A stretch of 64,000 bases of DNA, taken from NCBI GenBank assembly GCA_028689675.1, contig JAQVCS010000008.1:1-64000 (forward strand), given 5' to 3'. Shown in pieces: positions 6,346-59,856 of the stretch. The stretch comes from Desulfovibrionaceae bacterium (GTDB lineage Bacteria > Desulfobacterota > Desulfovibrionia > Desulfovibrionales > Desulfovibrionaceae). Positions within the stretch are counted from its first letter, which is position 1. Every line of letters starts with the position of its first letter. A program made the position numbers and the translations under genes. Below the pieces are notes generated by a model. That model was not told the origin of the DNA and did no database searches. It saw only the letters and a list, made by a program, of their open reading frames with translations.

Positions 6346-6483
6346 ATGAACGAAATAACATGGCTTTTGGCGGCAAATATTGCTGTATGGCTGGGTTTGG
6401 GTGCCTATATCGCTTTTTTGGGCTGCAAACAACGTGGCCTGAGCAAAAGGCTGCAACAAGTGGAGATGCTCAAGCATGATTGA
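6346..6483 (+). CDS. ccmD: Small haem exporter protein CcmD
   Basis: A 45-residue protein between ccmC and the TPR gene. It has one hydrophobic helix (about residues 5-25) followed by a basic, coiled-coil-like tail (K-Q-R-G-L-S-K-R-L-Q-Q-V-E-M), the usual CcmD plan. It begins 23 bases after ccmC, and its end overlaps the next gene by 8 bases. CcmD joins the CcmABC complex and is needed for release of holo-CcmE. Confidence 0.8.
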   Translation: MNEITWLLAANIAVWLGLGAYIAFLGCKQRGLSKRLQQVEMLKHD

Positions 6484-7066
6484 AACGCAAAAATTGGGTA
6501 TAGGCGCACGCATGGTGCTTTTTCTGGTGCTGGCTGGCGTGCTGACCATGCTGGGCGCATGGCTGTATGGGCGCATAACGCACCCTGAACTGGTAGTGCA
6601 CCGCCCCGTGCAGGAAGTGGGCTCTGGCGCTATGGCAGGCATGAAAATGGACAGTGCTGTGGGCAAGCTAATGGAGCAAGTGGGTAAAAACCCCAATGAT
6701 GGCAATGCCTTGTTCCACTTAGCGCAGCACTTGGGCACAGCGGGCAATTGGGCTGCGGCAGAAAGTTTTATAGAGCGCGCTGTTGCTCTTGAGCCTGCCA
6801 ACCCAGAATGGCTGCACTTCTTGGGCGTAACCAAACATGGTCTGGAAAAAAATGACGAGGCCGCTGCCGCACTAGAGCGCGTGGCCAGCATGACCAATAA
6901 ACCCGATGTGCGCTATAGCTTGGGTGTGCTGTATTTGTATTATTTGCAGCAGCCAGAAAAAGGCAAGGAACAGCTGCAAAAAGCTCTGAGCAGCCCCGAG
7001 CTGCCCGCTGATTTGAAAAAAATGATTAGCGATGAGTTAGATAAGATAAGCAAGGCAAAGCCCTAG
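6476..7066 (+). CDS. Membrane-anchored TPR protein of the ccm operon (CcmI/NrfG-like)
   Basis: 196 residues with an N-terminal membrane anchor (about residues 12-31) and tetratricopeptide repeats filling residues 60-165 (the N-A-L-F-H-L-A-Q-H-L and A-V-A-L-E-P-A-N-P-E-W type helices are typical). It overlaps ccmD and is the last gene of the operon. In other bacteria TPR proteins of the CcmI/NrfG kind present apocytochrome c to the ligation machinery; that role is inferred from position. Its TAG stop codon is part of the terminal repeat of the element that follows. Confidence 0.8.
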   Translation: MIETQKLGIGARMVLFLVLAGVLTMLGAWLYGRITHPELVVHRPVQEVGSGAMAGMKMDSAVGKLMEQVGKNPNDGNALFHLAQHLGTAGNWAAAESFIERAVALEPANPEWLHFLGVTKHGLEKNDEAAAALERVASMTNKPDVRYSLGVLYLYYLQQPEKGKEQLQKALSSPELPADLKKMISDELDKISKAKP

Positions 7067-7343
7067 GGCGTGTTCACACTCCGTTCTTTTGTCCTCTGGC
7101 GGCGTCAGACTTTGGCTTGTATTTCGGGTTAGTACCATAAGAGTACACTCCCTGCATACAGGCCTCGTCTTCCTTGCCAGCGAACAAAATTCCTGTAGTG
7201 TGAACACGCCCTACGAACACTCCGTTCTTTTGTCCTCTGGCGGCGTCAAACTTTGGCTTGTATTTCGGGTTAGTACCATAAGAGTACACTGCCTGCATAC
7301 AAGCTTCGTCTTCCTTGCCAGTGAACAAAATTCCTGTAGTGTG
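7065..7343. repeat. 141-bp tandem repeat, first copy bounded by 16-bp terminal inverted repeats
   Basis: Two near-identical copies with a period of 141 bases (7076-7202 matches 7217-7343) that differ at only a few positions. The first copy is enclosed by a perfect 16-base inverted repeat: AGGGCGTGTTCACACT at 7065-7080 and its complement at 7197-7212; the second copy lacks the outer right arm. The period is a multiple of three, so the minus strand stays open across both copies and would encode the same 47-residue unit twice. I see no ribosome site for that frame and regard the element as a non-coding dispersed repeat. Confidence 0.85.
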
Positions 7344-7393
7344 CGTACGCATCAGGCCAGCATTGTTGGTCATGCTTTGCCTGTGTGGGTGAG

Positions 7394-7429
7394 TATACAA
7401 AGAGCGCCTTGCGGGGCGCTTTTTGTATA
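7394..7429 (+). terminator. Rho-independent terminator
   Basis: AGCGCC/GGCGCT stem with a short GC loop, extended by a flanking TATACAAA...TTTTGTATA palindrome. The run of T follows directly. It can end transcription from the ccm side after the repeats. Confidence 0.75.
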
Positions 7430-17615: not shown

Positions 17616-17757
17616 GCACTAGAACCACTCCCCAAAGCGCTGTGCTGATGAAAAAATCAGCCTGAGCCTTACTGAGGGGCAGGCTGTGCCCTGTTTTTGC
17701 TGCTTGCGTACAAGGCTGGGGCGTGTTGTCTTTTTCAAAAATAGCATTGAGGCTAAA

Positions 17758-17806
17758 TAAAAAAAGGCTGCCACTCCGCGAATATTCAGAGTGGCAGCCT
17801 TTTTTA
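17758..17806. terminator. Bidirectional terminator between the activator gene and alaS
   Basis: Perfect 13-bp stem AAGGCTGCCACTC (17764-17776) / GAGTGGCAGCCTT (17789-17801) with A and T runs on either side, so it can end both converging transcripts. Confidence 0.92.
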
Positions 17807-17828
17807 TTTTTGCAACAGGGGTTCAGCC

Positions 17829-31106: not shown

Positions 31107-33200
31107 ATGGGGGACAGGGTGCTTTTTCCCAATGCGGGTTGTCTTGTGGAATATATGGAAGGCAATGCCCCGCAAATTGCCATGGTTACCGAAGAGCAGG
31201 GCGGGCGTTTGCGCCTGTTGTTACCCAACCGCCGCGAAACAAGGCTGAACGCCAGCCGCTTGCTGCCTTGGCATGGCCCCGCCTGCGCCGCTGGGCTGGG
31301 GCGTGACGCCGCCATAAAGCTGCTGGAAGAGCACCGCGCCCGCCGCGAAAGCCTGAGCGCCGCTATAGACCCCTTGGCTTTGTGGGAAATGGCACAGGGT
31401 GAGCTTGAGCGTGCCGATGCCGCTTGGTTTGCTGAATTATTCAGCTCAGAGCCCGATATTGATACCGTGGCGGCCTATGGCCGTGCTCTGCTGGCCTGCA
31501 AAAGCCATTTCAAATTTTCCTCCCCTGATTTTGAAATTTATTCGGAAGAAATCGTAGCCCGCCGCCTTGCCGAGCAGGAAGCGGCGCGCGAGCGCGAGGC
31601 TTTGGTGCTGGGCGGGGCAGATTTCTTCCGCCTGCTGTGGGACGTGTTTACTAAAAAACGCACCTTGCCGCAGGCAGATACGGCAGAGTACCCAGCCCCT
31701 GCTATTCAAGAGCGCCTTAAAGCCCTGCTGAAGGCAAAAATTGTCAGCCCCGAAGCGCAGGGGGATGAGGTGCTGTGGAAAAGCCTGACCAAAGGCCTGC
31801 CCGATGTGCAATACCTTGCCCTGCATTTGGCCGAGGCATGGCAGCTTGTGCCCCCACATTATAATTTTTGGCTGGATAGGGCAGACTATGCCGCAGGCGA
31901 TGACTGGTGGCAGCCCTTTGAGGCCGATGTGGAAGCCGTGCTGCACAAGGTGGCCGCCCTGCACACGCAGCCCCTTGATGCAACGCCCTTTATCAGCATA
32001 GACAGCGCCACCACGCGTGATGTGGACGATGCCTTTTATATTGAGCCCCGCGCGGAAGGGGGCTTTGAGCTGACCATTGCGCTGGCCTGCCCGCCCTTGT
32101 GCTGGGATTTTGATTCTGCACTCGATAAAGCCGTTATGCGGCGGGCAACCAGTATTTATTTGCCCGAAGGCACATGCCATATGATGCCCGAGCTGCTGGG
32201 GGCAGAGGCACTTTCTTTGCTGGCTGGCGCCCTGCGGCCTGCTTTGTGCGTGCACTGCACTGTGGATGCGGCAGGGCTGCTTGTGGCCTGCCAGCCCAGC
32301 GTGCGCGTTATTTCCCTTGCGGCAAATTTGTGCTATACTGATTGCGAGGCTGTGCTTGAAGGCGAGCTGGACAGCGCCAACCCCGCCACAGCCTATGCCG
32401 CACAGCTTGCCCTTGGCGATCAATGCGCTGTGCTGCGCCAGCAGGCACGCATAGCCGATGGCGCAGTGGTGATGGACAGGCCAGACGTGCATATGGAACT
32501 GAAGGGGCAAGGCGCAGACCTGCGTGTGCTTGTGGAAGAAGATGTGCCCGCCCCCCGTGCCCAATTGTTGGTGGCAGAAATGATGATTCTTGCCAGCACA
32601 GCCATGGCGGCATGGGCTTTGGAGCGCAATATTCCCATGCTGTTCCGCACACAAGATGTGGCGCTGCCCAAAGAGCTGGCGGGGATATGGACAGAGCCAG
32701 CAGCTATGACGCGGGTAATGCGGGCGCTTATTCCTTCTTCGCTTGATGTGTGCCCCAAGCGCCACGCCGCGCTGGGTGTGACCGCCTATGCCCCGCTTAC
32801 CTCGCCATTGCGCCGTTACCCTGATTTGATCAATGCCGCGCAGGTGGCGGCCTTTGTGCAAACAGGTGCGCCGCGCTTTGCTGCCGAGTCTTTACCCGAT
32901 ATGCTTTTCAAGCTGAATATGTATTTGGAAGCCGCAGGGCAGGTGCAGCGTTTTCGCCCCCGCTATTGGAAATTACTTTATTTCCGCCAGCAGGGGGATG
33001 CTGTGTGGTGGGATGCGGTTATTACAGAAGAAAATGATCACGTTATTTCTGTTAGCCTGCCCGCGCAGCAGCTTTTTGTGCGCGGTAAGCGTGCTCTTTT
33101 TGGCGAGCGCACCAACCCCGGCACTGCCGTGCGGGTGCGCTTGGGCAAAATAAATCCGTTATACAATGATATTGCACTGGTAGAAGTGCAGGAAGCCTAG
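31107..33200 (+). CDS. RNase II/R-family 3'-5' exoribonuclease
   Basis: 697 residues. The RNB catalytic domain spans about residues 290-600, with the acidic motif F-I-S-I-D-S-A-T-T-R-D-V-D-D-A-F holding the metal-binding aspartates and a later T-S-P-L-R-R-Y-P-D segment typical of the family. The N-terminal 250 residues lack clear cold-shock domains and contain helical segments. The C-terminal S1-like part is short. AAAAGGAG precedes the ATG. Degrades single-stranded RNA; it is closer to RNase II than to RNase R in domain content. Its TAG stop lies inside a repeat end also found after the ccm operon. Confidence 0.85.
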   Translation: MGDRVLFPNAGCLVEYMEGNAPQIAMVTEEQGGRLRLLLPNRRETRLNASRLLPWHGPACAAGLGRDAAIKLLEEHRARRESLSAAIDPLALWEMAQGELERADAAWFAELFSSEPDIDTVAAYGRALLACKSHFKFSSPDFEIYSEEIVARRLAEQEAAREREALVLGGADFFRLLWDVFTKKRTLPQADTAEYPAPAIQERLKALLKAKIVSPEAQGDEVLWKSLTKGLPDVQYLALHLAEAWQLVPPHYNFWLDRADYAAGDDWWQPFEADVEAVLHKVAALHTQPLDATPFISIDSATTRDVDDAFYIEPRAEGGFELTIALACPPLCWDFDSALDKAVMRRATSIYLPEGTCHMMPELLGAEALSLLAGALRPALCVHCTVDAAGLLVACQPSVRVISLAANLCYTDCEAVLEGELDSANPATAYAAQLALGDQCAVLRQQARIADGAVVMDRPDVHMELKGQGADLRVLVEEDVPAPRAQLLVAEMMILASTAMAAWALERNIPMLFRTQDVALPKELAGIWTEPAAMTRVMRALIPSSLDVCPKRHAALGVTAYAPLTSPLRRYPDLINAAQVAAFVQTGAPRFAAESLPDMLFKLNMYLEAAGQVQRFRPRYWKLLYFRQQGDAVWWDAVITEENDHVISVSLPAQQLFVRGKRALFGERTNPGTAVRVRLGKINPLYNDIALVEVQEA

Positions 33201-33221
33201 GGCGTGTTCACACGCCTTAGG
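33196..33221. repeat. Palindrome sharing the terminal-repeat sequence of the 7.1-kb element
   Basis: CCTAGGGCGTG-TTCA-CACGCCTTAGG, arms pairing at 10 of 11 positions. Its first 18 bases (33196-33213) are identical to 7062-7079 at the left end of the 141-bp element. It looks like two element ends fused without the interior. Confidence 0.6.
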
Positions 33222-59776: not shown

Positions 59777-59788
59777 GCACAGCGTTTT

Positions 59789-59845
59789 TAGCCATAAAAG
59801 AACTCCCGCACAGCATAGGTCTGCGCGGGAGTTCTTTTATGGCTA
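59789..59845. terminator. Bidirectional terminator with 21-bp perfect arms
   Basis: 59789-59809 is the exact reverse complement of 59825-59845 with a 15-base loop. The outer part is A/T-rich (TAAAAGAA / TTCTTTTA). It serves pyrD on one side and the secreted-protein gene on the other; the longest perfect stem in the window. Confidence 0.85.
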
Positions 59846-59856
59846 GGAAATTGCTT

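Follow-up and report, generated by a model that had tools for sequence, protein, structure and literature searches.

Two tandem copies of a MITE-like hairpin element, probably related to ERIC, behind a ccm operon in a Desulfovibrionaceae bacterium

Two tandem copies behind the ccm operon

The window, the whole stretch of 64,000 nucleotides that was analysed, carries two direct repeats just after the ccm operon. As a sequence-only reading of this DNA had described, the two copies are nearly identical: they are spaced 141 bp apart and share 94% identity over 134 nt (7076-7209 versus 7217-7350). Copy 1 is 150 bp long, with a GGGCG...CGCCC core set between a TA at 7064-7065 and a TA at 7212-7213. 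The plus-strand ORF 6476-7066 of the ccm operon has the first TAG of copy 1 (7064-7066) as its stop codon. The inverted ends of copy 1, TAGGGCGTGTTCACACT at 7064-7080 and 7197-7213, are 100% complementary over 17 nt, one base longer than the perfect 16 bp first claimed for them. Copy 2 has intact loops and core; its ends have diverged and do not match those of copy 1. The features are given below, with scores from R1, a covariance model built from 14 copies from several genera.

7064..7213, minus strand: complete element, copy 1; the minus strand is the folded strand (R1, 163.3 bits)
7064..7080: left-hand terminal inverted repeat as numbered in the window; forms the base of the hairpin with 7197..7213
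7197..7213: right terminal inverted repeat, opposite side of the hairpin base
7172..7176, minus strand: 5' internal-loop motif CAAGG, nearly invariant over the phylum; (C/G)AAGG in most ERICs
7102..7106, minus strand: 3' internal-loop motif GACGC, partner of CAAGG; (A)ACGC in most ERICs
7132..7146, minus strand: apical hairpin GTAC-TCTTATG-GTAC, flanked by GGAG.. and ..AACC/GACC
7214..7350, minus strand: copy 2, tandem (R1, 114.6 bits for 7217-7342)
7074..7400, minus strand: open frame of 108 codons (108 aa) spanning both units, with a 47-residue unit twice
33196..33221: tips-only remnant CCTAGGGCGTGTTCACACGCCTTAGG, directly at the stop codon of another gene

The remnant at 33196-33221 appears to have lost the interior of its hairpin by deletion. 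Two weak R1 matches elsewhere in the window (17757-17808 and 59786-59848) are short palindromic hairpins, and we rejected them as copies of the element. Head-to-tail arrays of up to five copies were seen at L082 (1501-2259), at L050 (1352-1624) and in the window (7064-7350). The tandem arrangement is incidental; single copies are the majority.

Dispersal and insertion at TA

The sequence-only reading had suggested a dispersed family and proposed a genome search for the 141-bp unit. That search bears the suggestion out: BLAST placed the 150-bp element at ~40 sites in the 2.36-Mb source genome, at 69-97% identity, far more often than chance would give, and also found it in seven related genomes. 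R1 returned 58 matches in the source genome, nine of them the second strand of the same places, and thus ~49 places. Within the same family, R1 matched 46 of 149 genomes and 15 of 44 genera, with 89 matches in the complete genome G090. Occupancy is patchy across genera, and G002, of the same genus as the source genome, gave no match. Sampling of the whole phylum gave matches in 39 of 297 genomes, and 31 of these lie outside the family and are spread over 18 other families. The copies outside the family are mostly 148-151 nt long, and those inspected share the fold and loops. Named records carrying the exact core pattern belong to Desulfovibrionaceae or to one deltaproteobacterial MAG. Searches of phages, plasmids and viral contigs returned no match to the element, and we rejected a phage or plasmid origin on that ground. 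Rfam (release 15) held no family covering the element, either in the window or at nine further loci.

Young copies show how the element enters the chromosome. Most, if not nearly all, of those in the source genome read TA-GGGC...GCCC-TA; left flanks ending in TTA occur alongside right flanks of CTA, and the duplication is therefore limited to the dinucleotide TA. When G090 was compared with four sister species of its genus, the filled site read GGTCGGCCTA, then GGGG..CCCC, then TACCC, versus GGTCGGCCTAGCC at the empty site, and a second insertion in this genus was absent from all four sister species. The two checks that had been proposed, for target-site duplications and for empty sites in relatives, thus both gave positive results, with the TA duplication clean at only some of the empty-site comparisons and small extra changes at others. 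At some sites, a different version of the element occupies the corresponding position. A short dispersed element with terminal inverted repeats (150 bp, 17-nt ends, ~49 places) fits the description of a bacterial MITE, and the earlier comparison with a miniature transposable element stands. We conclude that the element is a dispersed, non-autonomous, MITE-like mobile repeat.

At one site with orthologous right flanks in two species (L122 and L133), the outer stems of the element are completely different, which suggests that a copy was replaced in place or inserted there again. Just outside the element, in the left flank, copies from several of the phylum's other families (L208-L215, L218) share TCCGGATGAGAAACT, which resembles the element's own 3' end.

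Genes around the copies were called by a simple codon score. In two genera, 23 right ends versus 1 left end of the element fall at stop codons (p ~1.5e-6 under a coin-toss model, with approximate gene calls). The youngest copies of the source genome show no such bias, and the bias may reflect retention, not insertion. Because the element begins with G, a TAA or TAG that receives an insertion at its TA remains a TAG.

Neither G000 nor the complete G090 contains a pair of element ends at the distance of an insertion sequence (IS). In G090 no transposase-sized stretch lies between element ends, and the analysis as a whole turned up no mobilising enzyme. Most bacterial MITEs are likewise reported to lack a recognised autonomous partner with shared ends (PMC2229807).

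The element also varies in size. G090 contains larger versions of 196, 248 and 323 bp, in which hairpin modules of ~50 nt (AGCCGTTANGCGAG...) occupy three fixed loop positions, one of them in inverse orientation (L137-L147). At one locus, three species carry none, two or three modules, respectively, and the module core is also widely scattered elsewhere in G090. The interior can be wholly lost so that only the tips remain, as at 33196-33221. Minimal versions at one site (L175, L176, L195) consist of the outer stem and a CAAG..AAGA / TGACGCCG loop; the apical half is absent.

A conserved fold of one strand

Read on the minus strand, the element folds into a hairpin of ~150 nt, of which the terminal inverted repeat is simply the base. 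In an alignment of 35 copies drawn from the whole phylum, standard pairs fill 95.9% of pair cells, two-sided changes occur in 44 of 50 pairs, and double-change cells number 484 versus 135 (sd 9) in shuffled controls and 57-123 when the partner is slid, numbers that are inflated by the fitting of this alignment to the R1 structure. RNAalifold, run on a MAFFT alignment, supported 27 of 50 pairs; given this result and the size of the effect, the fold is secure. In the same 35 copies G-U cells outnumber A-C cells by 102 to 18, an excess which indicates that selection acts on the fold of a single strand, here the window's minus strand. The outer stems are unrelated in sequence between lineages (GGGCGTGTTCACAC, GGGGCTGTTTCCAAATT, GGCAGTGTCGTTACGAG, GGTTTCCGATTCGGAAAG) yet complementary, and the internal loops CAAGG and GACGC are nearly invariant over the phylum. 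What is conserved is the fold together with its internal loops, not the peptide and not the end sequence. At one orthologous site (L129, L178), a sister species carries matched changes on both sides of a stem and has a shortened apical part.

One could view the element as a conventional cut-and-paste MITE, in which a DDE transposase (IS630- or IS5-like, with a TA target) binds the double-stranded ends and the inner fold is incidental. The TA duplication and the near-perfect inverted ends, uniform within one genome, agree with such a view, and a single transposase binding both ends would make matched ends covary. We consider it unlikely: covariation is as strong in the inner stems as at the ends, the two sides of the loop are different conserved sequences, and G-U exceeds A-C on one strand. 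Moreover, the ends are unrelated between lineages, and no IS sharing them was found in G000 or in the complete G090.

The older copies bear on a second alternative, that the element is a cis-acting RNA of the host (a stabiliser of mRNA 3' ends, an RNase III site or a terminator) kept for the sake of neighbouring genes. This would account for the position of right ends directly after stop codons (23 versus 1), and effects on transcripts have been published for ERIC and Correia (PMC10969869). A host function, however, sits poorly with the lack of a match in G002 and the patchy occupancy between genera. The 31 older copies in the source genome, moreover, are 83% paired, with 123 G-U versus 101 A-C cells: they decay after insertion almost without selection and have almost no strand bias. 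We regard a host RNA as improbable, and infer that the fold is kept for the element's spread and not for the host's use at individual sites.

A third alternative, a REP/BIME-type repeat whose mobility depends on a RAYT or another Y1 (HUH) transposase, would fit the folded-strand signal and the palindromic, extragenic nature of the element and its place near stop codons, and Y1 transposase genes are present in the source genome. We rejected this partner as very improbable, since no Y1 transposase is present in G090 and G065, both complete, nor in G059, G063, G092 and G123, all of them rich in copies; furthermore, the element has no GTAG or CGTC tag.

Least probable of all, to the point that we give it next to no credence, is a gene for a 47-residue peptide or a module of a repeat protein: the minus strand is open through both copies, the period is divisible by three and third codon positions change slightly more (rates at positions 1/2/3 of 0.17/0.18/0.23), but stops interrupt the frame in 30 of 33 copies of the source genome and 43 of 53 copies elsewhere, lengths that shift the frame occur in 17 of 38 copies, and a Pfam search of the minus-strand ORF 7074-7400 returned no family above the cut-off. 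Thus, of the in-frame repeat that had been proposed, the open minus strand and the unit read twice are real, as are the three amino-acid changes between the units (T/A, A/G, F/S); the peptide carries no meaning of its own. Among the copies compared, we found no conserved open frame under purifying selection. The sequence-only reading had set a single locus with coding conservation against its own mobile-element proposal, and the opposite was found, ~49 places with the frame broken in most copies. The GKEDE peptide is the codon reading of the conserved loop sequence GGCAAGGAAGACGAG, and we judge ORF 7074-7400 to be a by-product, not a gene.

A probable relationship to ERIC and a proposed mode of spread

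ERIC is in use for typing throughout microbiology, and we know of no account of what moves it. Elements of this kind, among them ERIC, Correia, RUP and their relatives, have TA termini, a target-site duplication, long stem-loops and open frames (PMC2229807). ERIC itself (also IRU or RU-1) is reported from Enterobacteriaceae and Vibrionaceae (PMC10969869); our sample came from Escherichia, Klebsiella, Pantoea, Kosakonia, Rahnella and Vibrio. Like the element described here, ERIC has TA termini and a TA duplication, forms an imperfect palindrome that folds into a single long hairpin, contains open frames and lies near the 3' ends of genes. A comparison of 13 ERICs with 35 elements showed the same order of helices, the same loop sizes and the same motifs: in most ERICs, CAAGG or GAAGG stands opposite ACGC, and GGAG opposite GAC flanks the apical hairpin, as in the element. 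The apical part of ERIC, GGAGC-TTAC-ATAA-GTAA-GTGAC, occupies the position of the element's GTAC-TCTTATG-GTAC. The folded strand is also the same, with covariation in 20 of 37 ERIC pairs and a G-U to A-C ratio of 40:7. The two differ in length (~150 nt versus 127), in their outer stems, which are unrelated in sequence, and in host, as the element resides in Desulfobacterota, outside the reported host range of ERIC. Some element-bearing genomes, unlike ERIC, also have the ~50-nt modules at three fixed loop positions. At the nucleotide level, blastn of the element versus a plasmid collection that holds hundreds of ERICs (127 bp) gave no match.

We built two further covariance models, R2 from this phylum's copies only, with no ERIC, and R3 from ERICs only; calibrations were short and the E-values of all these models are rough. 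Over a 4.8-Mb E. coli chromosome, R2 gave a single match (E=4.8e-4), and this was an ERIC; in 14 of 14 ERIC loci it matched ERIC on the expected strand, at 7 to 34 bits. Conversely, when R3 was run on 81 kb of Desulfobacterota loci, it detected 20 of 30 elements at E<0.05, each on the expected strand, with a best E of 8e-7; its matches at this threshold included one unrelated hairpin. On the 64-kb window, the best R3 match was copy 1 (E=0.0035). ERIC and the element are therefore recognised by each other's profile on the correct strand and in register, with modest scores for single elements (7-38 bits). Since detection of long hairpins as such would be blind to strand, the strand-specific matches reflect more than that. 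These results make a relationship of the element to ERIC likely. Common descent is the simplest reading, the alternative being convergence on a shared recognition factor. We found no literature on ERIC-like repeats in this phylum, the Geobacter papers, whose supplements may list some of these repeats, being covered at the level of the main text.

Other systems also share features with the element. Correia elements (NEMIS) of Neisseria share TA termini, a TA duplication, a length of ~100-155 bp and a long hairpin, and have an optional internal segment of 50 bp (PMC2229807). R2 gave Correia 16.9 bits on its better strand versus 12.4 on the opposite one, and thus barely preferred a strand, which leaves Correia a candidate third member. 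In one Neisseria Correia element (L238), CAAGG/AAGG and AACGCC motifs resemble the element's conserved loop. REP/BIME/REPIN repeats with RAYT are also short extragenic palindromes of high copy number; the element is much longer. In related bacteria, multicopy nucleotide sequences of Geobacter and Pelobacter form dispersed, partly palindromic, intergenic families, and some of those listed may include the element; compared at the level of their main text, not of alignments, these descriptions give no fold, link to ERIC or phylum-wide family (PMC2700814, PMC2996986, PMC3543383).

Together, we consider it probable, at roughly 0.78, that both copies at this locus represent a small, non-autonomous, ERIC-type mobile element, the fold of one strand being recognised in trans, and that the element shares a common superfamily with ERIC. 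The element inserts at TA dinucleotides, in older copies often at the TA of a gene's stop codon. Its hairpin of ~150 nt has a fixed design and runs inward from the outer stem through a TTTT-rich stem, the CAAGG/GACGC internal loop, a 3-4 bp stem, a GA/GAA loop, a further stem and the GGAG/GAC loop to the apical hairpin. No copy encodes a protein, and hence a trans-acting factor must exist. This factor would recognise the strand in its folded state, and spreading elements would for that reason keep the fold and settled copies decay. The data favour such recognition, whether of RNA or of single-stranded DNA, two forms that covariation by itself cannot separate. The element family and ERIC would descend from one ancient superfamily.

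More tentatively, and at somewhat less than even odds, ERIC and the element may belong, as separate branches, to an ancient mobile-hairpin superfamily, in which a widely conserved factor acts on one folded strand for insertion at TA, and in which mobility is signalled by the fold and not by the inverted ends. A covariance model is now at hand for a repeat family not in Rfam that is scattered through 18 more families within the phylum. Because these relatives of ERIC from a different phylum keep its loops on different outer stems, they indicate which part is recognised, and a comparison of copy-rich with copy-free genomes offers a route to the mobilising factor, possibly including that of ERIC.
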